Assembly: GCA_020854235.1 (NCBI GenBank)
Contig: JADZFW010000117.1
Span: 1-49,757 of the forward strand
Origin: Flavobacteriaceae bacterium
GTDB lineage: Bacteria; Bacteroidota; Bacteroidia; Flavobacteriales; Flavobacteriaceae
Direction of reading: 5' to 3'
Length of the DNA stretch: 49,757 nt
Of the stretch, positions 4,377 to 23,457 are shown in pieces (positions within the stretch are counted from its first letter, which is position 1; every line of letters begins with the position of its first letter). The translations under genes and the position numbers were made by a program. The notes beneath the pieces are model-generated. The model did no database searches. It was not told the DNA's origin and saw only the letters and a program-made list of their open reading frames with translations.

Positions 4377-4565
4377 TTAAAATAGTTGAAATATAAATTT
4401 GAGAATATTTTGAAATGATTTGTCAGCTGCAAAAACCAATAAGGCAAAAATTACAGTAAAAACCGCAACGACAGCAGTAGATTTTTGTGCTTCTTCCCAA
4501 GAAATCCAGGTAACATTCTCCTTCAATTCGGTAAAAGACTCTTTTACGTAGTTTACAAATTTCAT
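4377..4565 (-). CDS. secE: Preprotein translocase subunit SecE
   Basis: 62 aa single-TM protein, KEVTW-like motif (ENVTWISWEEAQKST), between tRNA-Trp and nusG. Confidence 0.95.
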   Translation of the reverse strand: MKFVNYVKESFTELKENVTWISWEEAQKSTAVVAVFTVIFALLVFAADKSFQNILKFIFQLF

Positions 4566-4642
4566 TCTTTAACTATTTCTAACGGTTTAACCCGCGTTAT
4601 TAAAAAAAATTGGAAAAAATATCTCGACTGATATTCTATTTG

Positions 4643-4715
4643 CGCGGGCGGAAAGATTCGAACTCTCGACATTTGGTTTTGGAGACCAACGCTCTACCAA
4701 CTGAACTACACCCGC
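4643..4715 (-). tRNA. tRNA-Trp (CCA)
   Basis: GCGGGTGTAGTTCAGTTGGTAGAGCGTTGGTCTCCAAAACCAAATGTCGAGAGTTCGAATCTTTCCGCCCGC folds as cloverleaf with anticodon CCA. Confidence 0.97.
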
Positions 4716-4843
4716 TTGTGGAATGCAAGCATTCCGTTTAGAACTTCAATATTTTATTTAAAAATTAAAGTTCTCTTACAACACAACAAGGTATCCCGAT
4801 GAAACGGAACACCTTATTGATGTAATTTTATGAATGAAGATGA

Positions 4844-6031
4844 TTAGTCTACTAATTCAGTAACCTGACCAGCTCCAACTGTTCTACCACCTTCACGAAT
4901 CGCAAAACGTAAACCTACGTTCAAAGCGATTGCTTGATGTAATTCAACATTGATTGTCAAGTTGTCACCTGGCATAACCATCTCTACTCCTGCAGGTAAT
5001 TGGATATTTCCAGTTACGTCAGTTGTTCTTACATAGAACTGAGGACGATAGTTGTTGTGGAATGGAGTATGACGTCCACCCTCTTCTTTTTTAAGGATAT
5101 AGACCTCTGCTTTGAATTTAGCGTGTGGTTTAACTGATCCTGGTTTACAAAGAACCATACCACGACTGATGGCTGATTTTTCAACACCTCTCAACAATAA
5201 ACCTACGTTATCTCCAGCTTCACCTCTATCTAATATTTTACGGAACATCTCAACTCCAGTAATAGTAGAAGTTAATTTTTCAGCTCCCATACCGATGATT
5301 TCAACTGGATCTCCTGTATTGGCAACACCACTTTCGATACGACCTGTAGCAACAGTTCCACGACCAGTAATTGTAAATACGTCTTCAACAGGCATCAAGA
5401 ATGGTTTATCAACATCACGTGGAGGTAATTCAATCCAGTTATCAACTGCATCCATTAATTCCATAACTTTAGCTTCCCATTCTGGTTCTCCGTTCAATGC
5501 TCCTAGTGCAGAACCTTGAATTACAGGAGTGTTATCTCCATCATATTCGTAGAATGAAAGAAGATCTCTAATCTCCATTTCTACTAATTCCAACAATTCA
5601 GGGTCATCAACTAAGTCTACTTTATTCATGAATACAACCAAACGAGGCACACCTACTTGACGTCCTAAAAGGATATGCTCACGAGTTTGTGGCATTGGTC
5701 CGTCTGTAGCAGCTACAACGATGATTGCACCGTCCATTTGAGCAGCACCTGTTACCATGTTTTTAACGTAGTCAGCGTGACCTGGACAGTCAACGTGAGC
5801 ATAGTGACGTTTTTCAGTCGCGTACTCAACGTGAGCAGTGTTGATAGTAATACCTCTTTCTTTTTCTTCAGGAGCGTTATCAATAGAATCAAACGCTTTA
5901 ATTTCTGCTAGACCTTTTTTAGAAAGTACTAAAGTAATAGCAGCAGTTAAAGTAGTTTTACCATGGTCAACGTGTCCAATAGTACCGATATTTAAATGCG
6001 GCTTATTCCTATTAAATTGTTCTTTAGCCAT
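4844..6031 (-). CDS. tuf: Elongation factor Tu
   Basis: 395 aa; [26 protein letters not shown] motifs. Confidence 0.99.
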
Positions 6032-6101
6032 AATTAATTGTTTTACTTAGTTTATATTAGTGTTAATCTTAAAAATACGATTTTATAGGTAGTTTTTTTT
6101 G

Positions 6102-6173
6102 AGCCAACGACGGGAATTGAACCCGTGACCTTTTCCTTACCAAGGAAACGCTCTACCCCTGAGCTACGTCGGC
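6102..6173 (-). tRNA. tRNA-Thr (GGT)
   Basis: GCCGACGTAGCTCAGGGGTAGAGCGTTTCCTTGGTAAGGAAAAGGTCACGGGTTCAATTCCCGTCGTTGGC cloverleaf. Confidence 0.97.
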
Positions 6174-6278
6174 GTAGCGGTAACAGCGGACACAATTCAT
6201 CGGTCATAAAGATGGTATAAACCGATTCACTTGCTCTACGAATTCAAATCAAATTGACTAGCAATTGTTTGAAAATTG

Positions 6279-6351
6279 AGCGGGAGACGGGACTCGAACC
6301 CGCGACATTCAGCTTGGAAGGCTGAAGCTCTACCAACTGAGCTACTCCCGC
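6279..6351 (-). tRNA. tRNA-Gly (TCC)
   Basis: GCGGGAGTAGCTCAGTTGGTAGAGCTTCAGCCTTCCAAGCTGAATGTCGCGGGTTCGAGTCCCGTCTCCCGC. Confidence 0.97.
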
Positions 6352-14023: not shown

Positions 14024-14629
14024 TTGAAACAATCCCATCATCCTATAGTAAATTTGAAAAAAAATGATTGTATACTTTTTACGGATCGTGAATTGGTTGA
14101 AAAATCAATTCAAGACACTTCATTTTTTGCTTGTTTGTATCAACGGTATGAAAACAAATTATTGCGTTATATTCACCACATTTCCAATGTTTCGCAAGAA
14201 GAAGCCTTGGACATATTGCAGGAATCATTTATAAAAATTTGGAAAAATCTAAACGATTTTGACACTGACTTATCCTTTAGTAGCTGGGTATATCGCATTG
14301 TTCATCATCAAACCATTTCGGATTGGAGAAAATCAGTTTCCTATGGCAAAAACAAAACTGTAGATTTTGAAACACATCTGATGCATACTTCAAATGAAGA
14401 ATATACAAGCCTAGTAGATGAAAAAGAAAAAAAAGTGCTCCTTTTAATTAATCAATTACCCGAAAATTATAAAGCTGTTTTAGTACTCAAATATTTTGAG
14501 GAAAAGAACTACGAGGAAATCTCAGATATTTTAAAAATTCCGGAAGGTACTGTGGCCACCTATCTCAATAGAGCTAAGAAATCATTTGAAGCATTAGCCC
14601 AAAAACAACAAATTACTTTTTTCGATTAA
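14024..14629 (+). CDS. ECF-type RNA polymerase sigma factor (TTG start assumed)
   Basis: Sigma70 region 2 (LQESFIKIWKNLNDFD..SFSSWVYRIVHH) and region 4 (YKAVLVLKYFEEKNYEEISDILKIPEGTVATYLNRAKK). Confidence 0.92.
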   Translation: MKQSHHPIVNLKKNDCILFTDRELVEKSIQDTSFFACLYQRYENKLLRYIHHISNVSQEEALDILQESFIKIWKNLNDFDTDLSFSSWVYRIVHHQTISDWRKSVSYGKNKTVDFETHLMHTSNEEYTSLVDEKEKKVLLLINQLPENYKAVLVLKYFEEKNYEEISDILKIPEGTVATYLNRAKKSFEALAQKQQITFFD

Positions 14630-15634: not shown

Positions 15635-16342
15635 ATGAAAAATATATTTTTTTTCGCCTTTTTATTAACTTCAATAATTTTCCTTTTTAGCGGAAGCCAA
15701 AACATCAACAAACTAGCTCAAAATAAATCAACTAGTAATTTAAATGCCAAAGAAATTGAATTACTAAAACACATGCGTGAAGAAGAAAAACTAGCTCGAG
15801 ATGTGTATCAATATCTGGACAAAAAATATGACTTTTTTGTGTTTAAGAACATTTCAGAAAGCGAACAAAGACACATGGATCGCATGTTGGTTTTATTAAA
15901 TGAAAACCAAATTCCAGATCCTGCATCCGCTGAAAATGGAGTTTTCAACAATCCTGAACTACAAAAATTGTACAACCAATTGATTGCGCAAGGTGATATT
16001 TCACTCACAGAAGCCTTAAAAGCTGGAGCTACTATTGAAGACTTAGATATCAAAGATCTCATAACCTATAAAAATGATACTTCCAACCCTTTACTTTTGG
16101 ATGCATTAGACAATTTGACCTGTGGCTCCAGAAATCATATGAGAGCTTTTGTAGGGCAATTAGAACTTAAAGATGTCACCTATTCACCTCAGTTTATCAG
16201 TGCCGAAGTTTATAAAAGCATTATAGACGGTGACCATGAAAAATGTGGACAAATGGGAAATAATGGTGGTAAAGGCAAGGGGAATCAAGGTAAAAACTGC
16301 CAACAAACCAATTGTCAAAACAAATCCAATTGTAAAAAATAA
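15635..16342 (+). CDS. DUF2202 domain (ferritin-like) exported protein
   Basis: EIELLKHMREEEKLARDVYQYLDKKYDFFVFKNISESEQRHMDRMLVLL; N-terminal hydrophobic signal; Cys/Gly/Lys-rich tail. Confidence 0.9.
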   Translation: MKNIFFFAFLLTSIIFLFSGSQNINKLAQNKSTSNLNAKEIELLKHMREEEKLARDVYQYLDKKYDFFVFKNISESEQRHMDRMLVLLNENQIPDPASAENGVFNNPELQKLYNQLIAQGDISLTEALKAGATIEDLDIKDLITYKNDTSNPLLLDALDNLTCGSRNHMRAFVGQLELKDVTYSPQFISAEVYKSIIDGDHEKCGQMGNNGGKGKGNQGKNCQQTNCQNKSNCKK

Positions 16343-16442: not shown

Positions 16443-16460
16443 TCTTTATAAAATCTTTAT
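16443..16460 (+). promoter_or_regulatory. TCTTTAT-N4-TCTTTAT direct repeat (candidate KdpE-like operator 1)
   Basis: TCTTTATAAAATCTTTATA; 11-bp period; followed by TAATTTTG (16472-16479) -7-like element. Confidence 0.6.
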
Positions 16461-16501
16461 AGCATTTCTATTAATTTTGACAACACAAAAAAACAAATGA
16501 T

Positions 16502-17554
16502 ATGCGAAAATACAGCTTGCAAAAACAATTCTTATTCAGCATTGTACTCATTGTGAGTATTTCCATAACATTGTATTATACGGTTGACTATTTACATTAT
16601 AGAACAGTTGCACTGATCTTATTGCTTTGTGTATCGGTTTCAGCCATGTTATTTGACATTTATCCTGTTTTGGTTACCGCATTTTTGAGTGCTTTTATTT
16701 GGAATTTCTTTTTTATTCCACCTACTTTTACTTTACATATTGGTTCACCCGAAGATGCATTGATGTTTTTAATGTATTTTGTGATAGCTTTAATTAATGC
16801 TGTACTGAGTTTTAAAATCAGAGAATATCAAGTGGTTGAGCGGGATCGGATTGAAAAAGAGAATTCTATTAAATTGTACAATTCGCTTCTCAACTCGCTT
16901 TCACACGAGATGCGTACACCTATCGCTACCATTATTGGTTCTGTTGATGTATTGAATGAAAACGAACAAAATATTTCTCCAATTGGAAAAAAAGAATTGT
17001 TACAAGAAATTGAGAAAGCCGGATTGAGACTCAACCGCCAAGTAGATAATATTTTAAATATGAGCAGATTGGAATCGGGAATATTGCAACCACAACTCGA
17101 TTGGTGTGATATTGGAGAAATTACACATCTGGCCATCAAACACAATCATGAGCATCAAAAAAATCACGATATTCAGGTAATCATCCAACCCGAACTACCC
17201 TATTTTAAATTGGACAGATTTTTAATTGAACACATTCTCATTAATTTAATTCATAATGCCTTGGTATACACACCTGATCATACGCAAATCAAAGTAGAAG
17301 TTCAATATCATAAAAAAGTTTTAAAATTGATCATTTCGGATAATGGCAATGGAATACCTGAAAAAAATATTGCGCAAGTTTTCGACAAATTTTATAGGCT
17401 TCCCAATGCTGCAGCTGGTGGCACTGGACTTGGACTTTCCATAGTTAAAGGATTTACAGAAGCCCATCAGGGAAGCATTAATTTGGAAAATATCAAAACG
17501 GGTGGTGCTAAATTTACAGTATCTTTACCTGTCGAAACTTCAGAAATCATATAG
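16502..17554 (+). CDS. KdpD-like sensor histidine kinase, short form (DUF4118 + HisKA + HATPase)
   Basis: IWNFFFIPPTFTLHIGSPEDALMFLMYFVIAL (DUF4118), SLSHEMRTPIATIIGS (H-box), NALVYTP, DNGNGIP, GTGLGLSI. Confidence 0.92.
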   Translation: MRKYSLQKQFLFSIVLIVSISITLYYTVDYLHYRTVALILLLCVSVSAMLFDIYPVLVTAFLSAFIWNFFFIPPTFTLHIGSPEDALMFLMYFVIALINAVLSFKIREYQVVERDRIEKENSIKLYNSLLNSLSHEMRTPIATIIGSVDVLNENEQNISPIGKKELLQEIEKAGLRLNRQVDNILNMSRLESGILQPQLDWCDIGEITHLAIKHNHEHQKNHDIQVIIQPELPYFKLDRFLIEHILINLIHNALVYTPDHTQIKVEVQYHKKVLKLIISDNGNGIPEKNIAQVFDKFYRLPNAAAGGTGLGLSIVKGFTEAHQGSINLENIKTGGAKFTVSLPVETSEII

Positions 17555-17558
17555 CAAA

Positions 17559-18236
17559 ATGAATAAGTTGGATATATTAGTTATTGATGACGAGCCTCAA
17601 ATTCGCAAACTTTTACAAATTAGTTTGGAGAGTTATGATTACAGCGTGCATCAAGCAGCCAATGGAAAAGAAGGTTTAATCATGGCTGCCAATCATCCAC
17701 CTCATTTGATATTGTTGGATATTGGTTTACCCGATAAAAGTGGTCATGAGGTTTTACAGGAATTACGCGAATGGTATAACCAACCCATCTTGATTCTCTC
17801 TGTGCAAAACTCGGAGTACGATATTGTAAAAGCTTTGGACAATGGTGCAACCGACTATATCACCAAACCCTTTAGAACCGGCGAATTAATGGCACGTATC
17901 AGGTCGGCCATTAGATTGAGTCAAAATCAAACCGTTGAAACCATTTTATGTTTGGACGATTTACAAATAGATTTAACAGCACGCACGGTTAAAAAAAATG
18001 GAACTATTGTCAAACTAACGGCAACTGAATACCAACTCATATCACTCTTTGCAAAAAATGAAGGTAAAGTCCTAACCCATCAATTTATACTCAAGGAAAT
18101 TTGGGGAGTCGGATTTCAAACTGAAACGCAATATTTAAGAGTTTTTGTAGGAACACTTCGTAAAAAGATTGAAAACGATTTTCAAAATCCGGTACATATT
18201 ATTACAGAAAGCGGCGTCGGATATCGATTTCAATAA
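17559..18236 (+). CDS. KdpE-like OmpR/PhoB-family response regulator
   Basis: Receiver (IDDEPQIRKLLQISL..LLDIGLPDKSG..TDYITKPF) plus winged-helix; ATG at 17559. Confidence 0.93.
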   Translation: MNKLDILVIDDEPQIRKLLQISLESYDYSVHQAANGKEGLIMAANHPPHLILLDIGLPDKSGHEVLQELREWYNQPILILSVQNSEYDIVKALDNGATDYITKPFRTGELMARIRSAIRLSQNQTVETILCLDDLQIDLTARTVKKNGTIVKLTATEYQLISLFAKNEGKVLTHQFILKEIWGVGFQTETQYLRVFVGTLRKKIENDFQNPVHIITESGVGYRFQ

Positions 18237-18285
18237 TCTTTATTTTTTCTTTATTCCCTAAAAAAAATCTTTACTTTTTCTATAT
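18237..18285 (+). promoter_or_regulatory. Two tandem TCTTTAT-type direct-repeat pairs (candidate KdpE-like operator 2)
   Basis: TCTTTAT 18237-18243, 18248-18254; TCTTTAC 18268-18274 and TCTATAT 18279-18285; each pair 11 bp apart. Confidence 0.6.
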
Positions 18286-18322
18286 AAAATTTGCTTTCTC
18301 TTTGCATTGTAATTTCATTATG

Positions 18323-18652
18323 ATGGAAATAGATTCTAAAACTGCACATTTGATCGTTGAGATTTATCGCAATATTCAATCTGTAAAAGAAGTATTGAAA
18401 ACACCTCCTTTCTCAGATTCGGAATTGTTGTTTCAAAGCGGTCATGTTTTAGATGCTTTGATGAATCAAGCTTTGGCTATGTATTCGAATGATCTCATGT
18501 TGAAAAAAATTACTGCTTTGTCCAAATATGTAAAAGAGTTGAAACATCTCAACAGCATCATTATTTCCAACAACTTTCAAAATACATTAACAGTTCCTCT
18601 GGATAACATTTTTACAGATTTGGAATTGCTAAAAAATCAAATTAAAATTTAA
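18323..18652 (+). CDS. Small alpha-helical protein, paralog A, preceding trkH
   Basis: MEIDSKTAHLIVEIYRNIQSVKEVLKTPPFSDSELLFQSGHVLDALMNQALAMYSNDLMLKKITAL...; clear paralog of 21154..21480; ATG at 18320/18323 favoured over the upstream TTG. Confidence 0.85.
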   Translation: MEIDSKTAHLIVEIYRNIQSVKEVLKTPPFSDSELLFQSGHVLDALMNQALAMYSNDLMLKKITALSKYVKELKHLNSIIISNNFQNTLTVPLDNIFTDLELLKNQIKI

Positions 18653-18653
18653 T

Positions 18654-20213
18654 ATGTTTAAAACTTTTATCAAACAAATAGCTAGTTTACAGATGATTGT
18701 CGGTGGAGTAATCATGTTTCCTGCTATAGTATCTCTAATTTATGGAGAATGGTATTCGCTGATAGGATTTGTCATTTCTAGTATAGTCATCATGTTGATG
18801 GGATTTGTATTACATCATTTTTTAAATGAAACCAAAGAACCTGAATTTAAACATTCCTTGGCAATTGCTGCTTTAGGTTGGACTATGGTCATTGTATCCG
18901 GAGCACTACCTTATTACGTGACCGCATGGATAACCCCTATTGAAATCATGCAACAATTTGTTCCTACGGGAATGGTATACGAATCTAGTTTGCTCAATTT
19001 TAGAAATCCATTGCATTGTATTTTTGAAAGCACAAGTGCATTTACAACAACCGGATTATCGATGGCTTATCATGAACCATCGGTTGGAAAAACGATTTTA
19101 TTTTACCGACACTTTTCAAATTGGATTGGAGGTGCAGGTTTTATCGTAATGGCATTAGCAATATTCAAACAAATTCCTGGAAAAAGTGCAACCTTACTAT
19201 ATAATTCCGAAACTTCAGGTACCAAACTAAAAGCTACCATTATGGAAACAGCACGTTCCATTTGGAAAGCTTATCTAATCGTTTCTTTATTTTTATTCGT
19301 GTTACTTTTAGTAGGTACCTATTTGATTTTACCCGATTATCCTTTTTCTGAGAATCTTTTTGACTCCTTAAACCATGCCATGGCGGGAATATCTACTGGT
19401 GGATTTAGCACCTTGGATGATAGTATTGCAACTTATCAATCGGCTCAAATGGATATCTTGTATATTTTTCCCATGTTGATTGGAAGTTTCTCCTTACCAT
19501 TTTTCTTTCGGTTTATTTTTTTAAGAAAATACAGCGAATTGTGGAATGATATTCAAACCAGAGCCATTATAATCGGATCCATTATCGGAAGCATTCTATT
19601 GTCCATTTTCTTGATGCAATCACATCAAATATCTGATGCCTTTAGAGTTGGTACGTTTCAATTTGTAAGTGCTTTATCCACTACGGGTTGGCAAACCTCA
19701 AACATAGGTGCTTGGGATGATTTATCTATTTTGTTTATTGTTTCAGCGGGAATGATAGTAGGTGGAGCAGCTGGAGGAACTGTAGGAGGAATTAAAGTAA
19801 TCAGAGCCTTGTTATTACAAAAGGGATTGCAATGGCATATCAACAAAGTATTTCATCCTAAAAATGCAATTAAATCAATCAAATTTGACCATAAAATACT
19901 CCTCCCCGATGAAATGAATGCAGAATTGGCTCGAGCCGGAATTTTCACTTTGCTCTATTTGATTTTTGTATTTATTTCAACAATGATTACAACCTATTTT
20001 ATGAGTTCAGACTTTTCATTGGCAGATGCCTTGTTTGAATCGGCTTCGGCCCAAGGAACGGTTGGATTATCAACAGGCATAACCGACCCGGGAATGCATC
20101 CAGTATTGGAAACCGTCTACATTATTCAAATGCTTGCTGGAAGACTAGAAATCATACCCTTACTAGTATTGATTAGAATATTATTTATGGGAACAAAACC
20201 ACGACTCGTTTAA
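18654..20213 (+). CDS. trkH: TrkH/KtrB-type potassium uptake membrane subunit
   Basis: 519 aa; FESTSAFTTTGLS, AMAGISTGGFST, SALSTTGWQT, ASAQGTVGLSTG pore-loop repeats. Confidence 0.93.
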   Translation: MFKTFIKQIASLQMIVGGVIMFPAIVSLIYGEWYSLIGFVISSIVIMLMGFVLHHFLNETKEPEFKHSLAIAALGWTMVIVSGALPYYVTAWITPIEIMQQFVPTGMVYESSLLNFRNPLHCIFESTSAFTTTGLSMAYHEPSVGKTILFYRHFSNWIGGAGFIVMALAIFKQIPGKSATLLYNSETSGTKLKATIMETARSIWKAYLIVSLFLFVLLLVGTYLILPDYPFSENLFDSLNHAMAGISTGGFSTLDDSIATYQSAQMDILYIFPMLIGSFSLPFFFRFIFLRKYSELWNDIQTRAIIIGSIIGSILLSIFLMQSHQISDAFRVGTFQFVSALSTTGWQTSNIGAWDDLSILFIVSAGMIVGGAAGGTVGGIKVIRALLLQKGLQWHINKVFHPKNAIKSIKFDHKILLPDEMNAELARAGIFTLLYLIFVFISTMITTYFMSSDFSLADALFESASAQGTVGLSTGITDPGMHPVLETVYIIQMLAGRLEIIPLLVLIRILFMGTKPRLV

Positions 20214-20235
20214 TTAATTTTAAAAATAAAAAAAC

Positions 20236-20895
20236 ATGCATATCATTATTATTGGATCAGGTAAAACAGGCAAACACATTATTGACGCAGCCGTCAACGA
20301 CCAAAACGAAGTGTTTGTCATAGAAAAAAACAAGGAATTAGCTGATTGGGTGGCGACTAATTACGATTGCGTCGTTATTCATGGAGATGCAACCAAAGTT
20401 GAAATCCTAAAAGAAGCCAATGCTGAAAAAGCTGATGCTATCATTGTATCAACCAATGACGACGCAGTCAATATGTTGGTAATATTGTTAGCAAAACAAT
20501 TGGGAATCAAGCGATTGGTAAGCTCGGTAAACAATGAAGATCATATTCCGGTATTTGAGCAATTGGGAATTGATACCGTAGAAAGTCCTTATAGGTTGAA
20601 TGGAAAATATTTATATAGAGCAGTTCAAGGAGGTAACGTGAAAGATTTTTTAGATTTAGGAGACGGAATTGAAATTTTGGAATTGTTAATTGCACCAAAA
20701 TCTGTTTTAGTGGATACTGCTATAAAAGATTTACATTTTGAAAAAATCTTACCCAAAGAATGTAAAATAATAATCATCAAAAGAAATAATCAAATTATTG
20801 TTCCTGAAGGAGATACAGTTATATTAAACCATGATATAATTGTTGTTTTAACGCCTAAGGATAAAATAAGACATATTATTCAGATATCAAAATAA
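20236..20895 (+). CDS. trkA: TrkA/KtrA-type potassium uptake regulatory subunit (TrkA_N + TrkA_C)
   Basis: 219 aa; [15 protein letters not shown] Rossmann fold, [12 protein letters not shown]. Confidence 0.93.
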
Positions 20896-20941
20896 AGACT
20901 CGCAAAAAGAAAAAACAGACTTAACAAATAAATTTTTTGTA

Positions 20942-20972
20942 AACAGCACTTTTAAGTAAAAAAGTGCTGTTT
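20942..20972 (+). terminator. Terminator after trkA
   Basis: AACAGCACTTTT..AAAAGTGCTGTT then T-run. Confidence 0.8.
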
Positions 20973-21065
20973 TTTTATATTCTAAAAGCAAAAAATATAA
21001 AACATTGAATATGAGTTGATAACTAAGATAACGATTTTGAAAATACTATTTTTCTGCTTTAACAA

Positions 21066-21115
21066 TCTTTATATTTTCTTTATACTTTAACCTAATATCT
21101 TTATATTTTCCATAC
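21066..21115 (+). promoter_or_regulatory. Two tandem TCTTTAT-type direct-repeat pairs (candidate KdpE-like operator 3)
   Basis: TCTTTAT 21066-21072, 21077-21083, 21098-21104 and TCCATAC 21109-21115; 11-bp period within pairs. Confidence 0.6.
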
Positions 21116-21153
21116 TTTAAAAAAAGTTTCTTTGCATCGTAATTTTAAGTACA

Positions 21154-21480
21154 ATGCAAATTGACACCAAAACAGCTGATTTAATTGTTGAAATTTATCG
21201 CAATATTCAATCGATAAAAAACATTCTTAAAACCAAACCTTTCATCGATTCGGAATTATTGGTCCAAAGCGGTAATGTCTTGGATGCATTGATGAATCAA
21301 GCATTGGCCATACATTCCAATGCCCTAATGCTTCAAAAAATTACGCAATTAACCATTTATGTGAAAGAATTAAAAGAGACCAATCAATCTCTAATTTCAA
21401 TTCCCTTTCAAAACCATCTCAATCAACACCTTGATACCATTATCTCAGATTTAGAGGTTTTAAAATCAAATTTAAATTAA
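21154..21480 (+). CDS. Small alpha-helical protein, paralog B, preceding kup
   Basis: MQIDTKTADLIVEIYRNIQSIKNILKTKPFIDSELLVQSGNVLDALMNQALAIHSNALMLQKITQL...; aligns nearly without gaps to 18323..18652. Confidence 0.88.
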   Translation: MQIDTKTADLIVEIYRNIQSIKNILKTKPFIDSELLVQSGNVLDALMNQALAIHSNALMLQKITQLTIYVKELKETNQSLISIPFQNHLNQHLDTIISDLEVLKSNLN

Positions 21481-21483
21481 ACT

Positions 21484-23457
21484 ATGGAACACCAAAACAA
21501 AGCCTATGTTCAAAAAGTAACTGCAGCTACTTTATTAGTAGCATTGGGAATCATATATGGAGATATAGGAACCAGCCCGCTCTATGTATTAAAAGCTATT
21601 GTAGGGACCAAGCAAGTTTCCGATGTATTGGTTTATGGCGGTGTCTCGCTTATTTTTTGGACTTTGGTTTTTCAAACCAGTATCAAATACATTTGGTTAA
21701 CACTCCAAGCTGATAATCACGGTGAAGGAGGTATTTTCTCTTTGTATGCTTTAGTTAAAAGATTTGGTAAAAAGTTGGTAATACCAGCCATGATCGGTGC
21801 TACTACGCTTCTAGCAGATGGTATTATCACGCCACCCATTTCCGTAGCTTCTGCTGTTGAAGGTTTAACTATTGTCAAAGGTTTGGAAAATCTTCCAACT
21901 GTGCCAATAGTCATATTAATTTTATCTTTTTTGTTTTTCTTTCAACGTTTTGGAACGCAAAAAGTTGGGGTCTTCTTTGGTCCGGCAATGGTTGTTTGGT
22001 TCAGTATGTTGTTCATCATGGGTATGAGTCACATCATTCATCATCCGGATATTTTCAAAGCTTTAAGCCCACATTACGCCTATGAATTATTGGTACAATA
22101 TCCACATGGATTTTGGATTTTAGGTGCCGTATTTTTAGCGACAACCGGTGCGGAAGCTTTGTATAGTGACTTGGGACACTGTGGAATTAAAAATATTCGC
22201 ATCACATGGGTATTTGTTAAAACTAGTTTGGTTATCAATTATTTGGGTCAAGCTGCTTGGCTCATGCATACGGATATCCAACATTTATCCGGCAAAAATC
22301 CATTTTTTGAAATGATGCCACCTTGGTTTTTATTAACCGGTATATTCATAGCCACTAGTGCAGCCATTATAGCTTCACAAGCTTTAATCAGTGGAAGTTT
22401 TACTTTGATAAACGAAGCGATGAACTTAAACTTTTGGCCTCGAGTTAAAGTGAGACAACCTTCAGATACCAAAGGTCAAATTTATATTCCCAGTGTTAAT
22501 TTCTTATTATGGGTAGGATGTCTTTTTGTCATCCTATTTTTCAAAAATTCCAGTAATATGGAAGCAGCCTATGGATTGGCCATAACCATTACCATGATGA
22601 TGACAACCATATTGTTAGGCACATTTTTATTATACAGATTGAAGTGGAAAAAACAATTTGTATATACTATAATACCCATGTTTTTAATAATTGAATTATC
22701 CTTTTTTGTAGCCAATATCCAAAAGTTTCCTGAAGGTGGCTATATTACCCTTATTATCTCAAGTGTTTTCTTTTTTGTCATGTTTTCGATCTATTCAGGT
22801 AGAAAAATCACCAACAGACTGACCAAGTTTGTGACCTTTTCCAACTATATTGATCATTTGAAAGAATTGAGCAATGATGATAGCATTCCCAAATTTTCCA
22901 CTCATCTCATCTATTTGAGTAAAGCTGATCGAAAAAATGAAATTGAAGAAAAAATTATGAGATCAATTTTCTCAAAAAAACCAAAAAGAGCTGATGTATA
23001 TTGGTTTTTACATTTAGACCGTACGGAAGATCCTTATACCTTGAGCTACGACGTTTCAGAAATTGTAGATGATACCATCATTAAAGTTAACATCAGAATC
23101 GGATTTAGAATATTTCCGAAAACTGAAATGTATTTTAAAAAAATCGTTCAGGATTTGGTAGCTAATAAAGAACTAAACTTACACATCAGACCTGACGGAA
23201 GCACAAAATATAACAACGAACCTGATTTTAAGTTTGTAGTGATTGAAAAATTCTTATCCGTTGAAAATGAATTTACTATTAAAGAAGGAATTCTTTTAAA
23301 TGCCTATTTCTTTATGAAAAAACTGGCTCAAAAAGATGAAGCAGCATTTGGTTTGGATAAAAGCGATGTGGTGATTGAACACGTTCCTTTGGTATTTGAA
23401 AAGGTGACTAGTTTCAATTTGATAAGAGAACATAAAAAGAAGAAAAAATTGAATTGA
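21484..23457 (+). CDS. kup: Kup-family potassium uptake transporter
   Basis: 657 aa; GIIYGDIGTSPLYVLKAI, ADNHGEGGIFSLYALVKR, LADGIITPPISV, TTGAEALYSDLGH. Confidence 0.97.
   Translation: MEHQNKAYVQKVTAATLLVALGIIYGDIGTSPLYVLKAIVGTKQVSDVLVYGGVSLIFWTLVFQTSIKYIWLTLQADNHGEGGIFSLYALVKRFGKKLVIPAMIGATTLLADGIITPPISVASAVEGLTIVKGLENLPTVPIVILILSFLFFFQRFGTQKVGVFFGPAMVVWFSMLFIMGMSHIIHHPDIFKALSPHYAYELLVQYPHGFWILGAVFLATTGAEALYSDLGHCGIKNIRITWVFVKTSLVINYLGQAAWLMHTDIQHLSGKNPFFEMMPPWFLLTGIFIATSAAIIASQALISGSFTLINEAMNLNFWPRVKVRQPSDTKGQIYIPSVNFLLWVGCLFVILFFKNSSNMEAAYGLAITITMMMTTILLGTFLLYRLKWKKQFVYTIIPMFLIIELSFFVANIQKFPEGGYITLIISSVFFFVMFSIYSGRKITNRLTKFVTFSNYIDHLKELSNDDSIPKFSTHLIYLSKADRKNEIEEKIMRSIFSKKPKRADVYWFLHLDRTEDPYTLSYDVSEIVDDTIIKVNIRIGFRIFPKTEMYFKKIVQDLVANKELNLHIRPDGSTKYNNEPDFKFVVIEKFLSVENEFTIKEGILLNAYFFMKKLAQKDEAAFGLDKSDVVIEHVPLVFEKVTSFNLIREHKKKKKLN

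Follow-up and report, generated by a model that had tools for sequence, protein, structure and literature searches.

A candidate KdpE operator at Trk and Kup potassium-uptake genes in Bacteroidota

Gene order, paired boxes and their rarity

We analysed a 49,757-nt contig (JADZFW010000117.1; hereafter, the window) from the genome of a Flavobacteriaceae bacterium (GCA_020854235.1; 2.49 Mb, 201 contigs, 76% complete). The window carries a KdpDE-like two-component system next to trk and kup genes for K+ uptake, with paired TCTTTAT boxes that we interpret as putative binding sites for the response regulator. All genes and elements of the locus lie on the + strand. The genes are, in order, a reduced KdpD histidine kinase (350 amino acids [aa], positions 16502..17554) with the Pfam transmembrane domain DUF4118 followed by HisKA and HATPase_c; a KdpE-type response regulator of the OmpR family (225 aa, 17559..18236; Pfam Response_reg and Trans_reg_C); small protein A (110 aa, 18320..18652); a TrkH-family K+ transporter (519 aa, 18654..20213; Pfam TrkH); a TrkA-type K+ transport regulator with one TrkA_N and TrkA_C unit (219 aa, 20236..20895); small protein B, a paralog of A (108 aa, 21154..21480); and a Kup K+ transporter (657 aa, 21484..23457; Pfam K_trans). 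The scores for Pfam TrkH, TrkA_N/TrkA_C and K_trans far exceeded the cut-offs, and the NCBIfam scores fell under the curated model cut-offs. The Kup protein was 65-67% identical to KdpE-linked Kup proteins from other genera and families, versus 46-47% to Kup from genomes of the same order (for example, G156); those same-order loci were therefore left out of footprinting.

Boxes with two exact half-sites stand in front of the kinase gene, the small protein A-trkH-trkA unit and the small protein B-kup unit. The putative KdpE box upstream of the kinase gene (TCTTTATAAAATCTTTATA, 16443..16461) is a proximal (type I) pair. At the trk unit, a putative distal box (18237..18255) starts right after the regulator stop codon, and a putative proximal, degenerate pair with two mismatches follows 31 bp downstream (18268..18286). 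The kup unit likewise has a putative distal box that matches the exact motif (21066..21084) and, 32 bp further on, a putative proximal, degenerate pair with three mismatches (21098..21116). An earlier note on this DNA had placed exact TCTTTAT pairs at 16443, 18237 and 21066 and degenerate pairs at 18268 and 21098; all five were present there.

The exact pair, TCTTTAT-N4-TCTTTAT, occurred four times in the whole genome, and three of these occurrences fell within 4.7 kb. The number expected per genome was 0.17 from the dinucleotide frequencies of the window, a model that makes intergenic DNA less AT-rich than it is. Thus the pair is not common genome-wide; had it been so, the reading of the earlier note would have been refuted. 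The fourth exact pair (C71:46038) was not at a promoter: the two flanking genes, read as recR and fabI, point towards each other, and the pair lies between their 3' ends. This site and the one-mismatch sites elsewhere in the genome were found at convergent 3' ends, inside open reading frames (ORFs) or beside a ribosomal-protein gene; none adjoined K+ genes, so no further member of the regulon was found. Looser matches were not enriched, either in the window with up to three mismatches (32 versus 25.6 expected) or genome-wide with up to two (102 versus 137 for the reversed control), and the statistical case therefore depends on the exact pairs and their conservation.

Regulator orthology and conservation of the box

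Sequence comparison identifies the regulator (17559-18236) as an ortholog of KdpE. Its best NCBIfam model was KdpE (208.6 bits, under the equivalog cut-off of 325), and its best match in the PDB was Escherichia coli KdpE. It consists of a receiver domain and a winged-helix OmpR/PhoB effector domain, and the equivalent of D52, the phospho-acceptor Asp, is conserved. In a phylogenetic tree, the window regulator, E. coli KdpE and the regulators of kdpABC operons formed one clade (support 97/94), apart from other OmpR-family regulators, and the Trk/Ktr/Kup-linked regulators formed a subclade within it (99/97). The DNA-contact residues R193, R200 and T215 were all conserved. Arg193 of the recognition helix, which is important for DNA binding according to a structure study of E. 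coli KdpE (PMC3264566), was Arg in 21/21 members of the KdpE clade and Asn or Asp in 14/14 other OmpR-family regulators. The tree, the best family match (under the NCBIfam KdpE cut-off) and Arg193 bear out the earlier suggestion that a KdpE-like regulator lies inside this island, and the E. coli KdpE site given in the earlier note, TTTATA-N5-TTTACA, agrees with the published one (PMC3264566).

Among 198 relatives, two genomes carried regulator orthologs with 65-69% identity, at three loci in total; a phylum sample contained others with up to 77% identity. The box (ATCTTTATAAAATCTTTATA) recurred at the ortholog loci before the kinase gene, directly 3' of the regulator gene, or both, ahead of trkH, ktrB-like or kup genes; promoter conservation at orthologous loci, which had been proposed as a check, was thus strong. 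A 19-mer (TCTTTATANNNTCTTTATA) had 18 exact matches in 24 regulator-bearing genomes, compared with one for the reversed control. Scanning 150 family genomes with the motif only, we obtained ten matches, eight at kinase-regulator-transporter loci and two inside ORFs, and the scan exposed loci in two genomes (G145 and G133) that the protein search had overlooked. In a 20-mer scan of 399 family genomes, 10 out of 11 matches had a histidine kinase-response regulator-K+ transporter context.

Scanning genome contigs with the regulator alignment yielded 80 loci in named Bacteroidota that carry a relative of the regulator, spanning Flavobacterium, Leeuwenhoekiella, Cellulophaga, Salegentibacter, Litoribacter, Fulvivirga, Parapedobacter, Chitinophagaceae, Saprospiraceae and others. 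At least one box was present at 66 of them, and the boxes totalled 88 versus four for the reversed motif. The same box was found ahead of kdpA, trkH, ktrB-like, kup and KimA-like genes. Control of kdpFABC, as exercised by KdpE elsewhere, has no counterpart in the window's own system, as we found no KdpA in its 76%-complete genome; among relatives, those whose operons encode KdpA, KdpB and full KdpD/KdpE have the box just upstream of kdpA. Judged from sequence, the box is the candidate KdpE operator of Bacteroidota.

Individual loci showed further arrangements. A Marinifilum metagenome-assembled genome (L194) has divergent kdpAB and kinase-regulator-kup genes, with an exact box of its own on each side. 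Genome G100 carries two complete KdpDE-small protein-TrkH-TrkA modules (L062 and L063); a separate KdpD_N-like gene and a further kinase gene are found a few kb upstream of the L062 module, and transposase genes follow it. At L125, L141, L201 and L230, the box is ahead of an APC-type permease gene or such a gene neighbours the regulator locus, and the boxed loci L125 and L141 precede APC permeases. The sole PDB match for the L125 permease (4381-6315) was Bacillus subtilis KimA, so KdpE may control KimA-like K+ import in Bacteroidota as well.

Promoter geometry and the proposed regulon

The Bacteroidota -7 consensus is TAnnTTTG (PMC7366714). The kinase-regulator operon has a -7 element (TAATTTTG, 16472..16479) with TTTG at +34 from the box start, a spacing equal to that of the proximal pairs at other loci. 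Weak -7 elements are found at the trk unit (TCTCTTTG, 18297..18304) and the kup unit (TTTCTTTG, 21127..21134), with TTTG at +65 and +66 from the respective distal box. Neither of these two promoters has a -33 TTTG, and their -7 boxes are indeed poor against the consensus, as had been observed before. In 72 of the 88 surveyed boxes, the distance from the box start to TTTG was exactly 34 or 65/66 nt, whereas shuffled downstream sequences gave a mean of 1.86 and a maximum of 10 in 5000 trials. A hand-checked set, which partly overlaps the 88, had TTTG at +34/65/66 in 28 out of 35 boxes.

Two promoter types were apparent. Type I has a single strong pair with half-sites at -31 and -20, counted from TTTG; type II has a strong distal pair at -62/-51 and a weaker pair at -31/-20. 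The kinase promoter in the window belongs to type I, and the trk and kup promoters belong to type II, of which the proximal pair is a conserved feature. In both types, the proximal pair overlaps the -33 region. The tandem spacing of 31/32 bp is conserved across the phylum, making the double sites in the window an instance of a phylum-wide design. The earlier figure of 20-21 bp for these double sites, about two helical turns, holds from the inner half-site to the next half-site; measured from pair start to pair start, however, the offset is 31/32 bp, or approximately three turns.

We put at roughly 90% the probability that the paired boxes are operators for the KdpE ortholog and that one autoregulated KdpDE system induces both Trk and Kup. 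A single self-regulated system of this kind had been proposed in the earlier note, and the rarity of the sites, their conservation at orthologous loci, the orthology of the regulator to KdpE and the box before kdpA all support it. In such a system, the reduced KdpD, comprising the membrane domain DUF4118 and the kinase core, would phosphorylate the regulator when K+ is scarce. Dimers of phospho-KdpE would then occupy the 11-bp-spaced direct repeats TTTATA-N5-TTTATA on one face of the DNA, where they would make up for the -33 contact that the Bacteroidota sigma factor lacks here. At the kinase promoter, the single strong pair adjoining the -7 box, with its half-sites 31 and 20 nt upstream of TTTG, would provide positive autoregulation. 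At the trk and kup promoters, the strong distal pair (62/51 nt upstream) would help to fill the weak proximal pair beside the poor -7 boxes, and low K+ would thereby induce Trk and Kup through activation by one regulator.

Several observations weigh against this reading. The proximal pairs at trk and kup carry two to three mismatches and would not stand out by themselves, E. coli KdpE sits on a long branch of the tree, and no regulator match was obtained at the cut-off used in three genomes of the same genus (63-84% complete). In addition, 14 out of 80 regulator loci had no box in the DNA examined. Six of these are cut, comprising five kdp operons whose upstream end lies outside and one contig end; five of the remaining eight are in DNA of 49-57% GC, in which the AT-rich motif may have diverged.

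KdpE, perhaps in its unphosphorylated form, might instead be a repressor that covers the -33 region and prevents transcription when K+ is high, as the overlap of the proximal pair with this region in both promoter types would allow. We consider repression unlikely, however, because poor -7 elements without a -33 TTTG at trk and kup are expected of activator-dependent promoters, the strong distal pair is upstream of the promoter in an activator position, and KdpE activates kdpFABC in E. coli and Sinorhizobium fredii. Still less probable is that the box serves a different regulator of the OmpR/PhoB family, or is a global AT-rich element, and is near KdpDE only incidentally. The geometry of 7-bp direct repeats set 4 bp apart is general to OmpR/PhoB regulators, but the exact motif was at background in family genomes without this regulator (two ORF-internal matches; 1/11 in the 399-genome scan), and its occurrences adjoin this regulator even at loci found by motif alone. 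A chance cluster of repeats in an AT-rich genome (34% GC in the window), in which motifs with two to three mismatches are not enriched, is refuted by conservation in tens of species at a fixed spacing to the promoter, besides the three exact pairs in 4.7 kb against 0.17 expected per genome. A cut-down KdpD/KdpE pair appears, from these comparisons, to have been re-wired across Bacteroidota to Trk and Kup, and elsewhere to Ktr or KimA-like importers, instead of or besides the Kdp pump.

The reduced kinase, the small proteins and comparison with known systems

The 350-aa kinase has the transmembrane and core domains of KdpD (the four-helix membrane domain DUF4118, HisKA and HATPase_c), and Pfam revealed no KdpD_N serine kinase, USP or GAF domain in it. 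We label it KdpD-like, rather than full KdpD, and its K+-dependent kinase/phosphatase activity is putative. Full KdpDs in the kdp operons of relatives measure 873-932 aa, and two that we checked with Pfam (886-887 aa) contain KdpD_N, DUF4118, GAF, HisKA and HATPase_c. Intermediate forms of 502-523 aa are without the N-terminal part and retain GAF. Across the 80 loci surveyed, short kinases (430 aa or less) were mainly accompanied by Kup (43 loci) or Trk/Ktr (15 loci), and kinases of more than 650 aa by KdpB (four loci). E. coli KdpD uses its N-terminal domain to phosphorylate KdpB (PMC11018627), so the absence of this domain where there is no KdpB to serve would make sense. The reduced kinase may sense external K+ only. 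Directly upstream of the kinase gene is a gene for a DUF2202-family secreted protein (15635-16342), and an ECF-like sigma factor is encoded at 14024-14629; neither has a box upstream, and both seem to have no part in the regulon.

Small proteins A and B are paralogs with 67% identity, and each opens a transporter unit with a KdpE box. Neither had a Pfam or NCBIfam match. The AlphaFold model of B is a four-helix bundle (mean predicted local distance difference test score, 91.7), and A is predicted to have the same fold on account of its identity to B. A fold search with B returned generic helical bundles only, none at E <= 0.001, so no function follows from it. Direct homology searches with B found no relatives among 150 family genera or in the same genus, and neither did a contig search with A and B. 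Relatives were located only by position and then linked by profile: in several relatives, trkH, ktrB-like or kup is preceded at the corresponding position by an ORF of similar size, and a profile of these positional ORFs retrieved A and B at E of about 2e-6 from a database of 855 other short ORFs, with the best apparently unrelated ORF at 0.06. A second subtype, in Leeuwenhoekiella, was weakly linked by profile. In genome G100, the equivalent gene of one module (L063, 9626-9995) appears to be interrupted by frameshifts, and the L062 copy is intact.

A and B probably belong to a fast-evolving four-helix family that stands beside Trk, Ktr and Kup in other Bacteroidota and is undescribed in Pfam and NCBIfam. 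More speculatively, and with considerable doubt on our part, these proteins might be soluble and might directly gate or stabilise the adjacent Trk, Ktr or Kup, replacing the transporter-level control that the N-terminal serine kinase of KdpD exerts on KdpB in E. coli. If A and B did modulate the transporter, the module would be a complete swap-in K+ circuit of sensor, regulator, operator, small modulator and any importer.

KdpDE is the textbook switch of the Kdp pump. What would be new here is a KdpDE regulon in which the operator has been kept and the transporter exchanged, with a kinase often stripped of the domains that serve the pump. It offers a testable case of a regulon that retains its signal and operator while swapping its transporter. 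It also provides a motif diagnostic of Bacteroidota K+ regulons and a geometry for the activation of -7 promoters in this phylum by response regulators, and it points to an unannotated small-protein family linked with K+ transport. The open-licence literature, to which our search was confined, yielded no report of Trk or Kup being controlled by KdpE in Bacteroidota.

The window system resembles E. coli KdpDE (PMC3264566) in its KdpE ortholog with Arg193, Arg200 and Thr215, in the DUF4118 domain and kinase core of its KdpD-like kinase, and in two 6-bp direct repeats with a 5-bp gap (TTTATA-N5-TTTATA, compared with TTTATA-N5-TTTACA). It differs in its predicted targets, trkH-trkA and kup instead of kdpFABC, in its 350-aa kinase without KdpD_N serine kinase, USP and GAF, and in its tandem sites at a fixed distance from a Bacteroidota -7 box. 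S. fredii also has a KdpE-orthologous regulator of K+ uptake in a genome with Trk and Kup (PMC9239096). In electrophoretic mobility shift assays, however, S. fredii KdpE bound the kdpFABC promoter and not those of trkA or kup (PMC9239096), whereas in the window the box stands before both the trk and the kup unit; the predicted coupling of KdpE to Trk and Kup thus departs from the tested precedent. The Bacteroidota sequence evidence opposes the S. fredii result, with the same regulator and operator tied to Trk, Ktr, Kup and KimA-like importers. Split and shortened KdpDs are known, including TM/GAF/DHpCA kinases separate from KdpD/USP serine kinases (PMC11018627); that survey was limited to species with a Kdp pump, whereas the window kinase also has no GAF domain and comes from a genome in which no KdpA was found. 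The ydaO cyclic di-AMP riboswitch of Firmicutes, which controls ktr, kimA and kdp (PMC6488665, PMC11018627), is similar in that a single K+-responsive element is common to several unrelated K+ importers. By contrast with that RNA riboswitch and its second messenger, the window has a predicted DNA operator and a two-component regulator.

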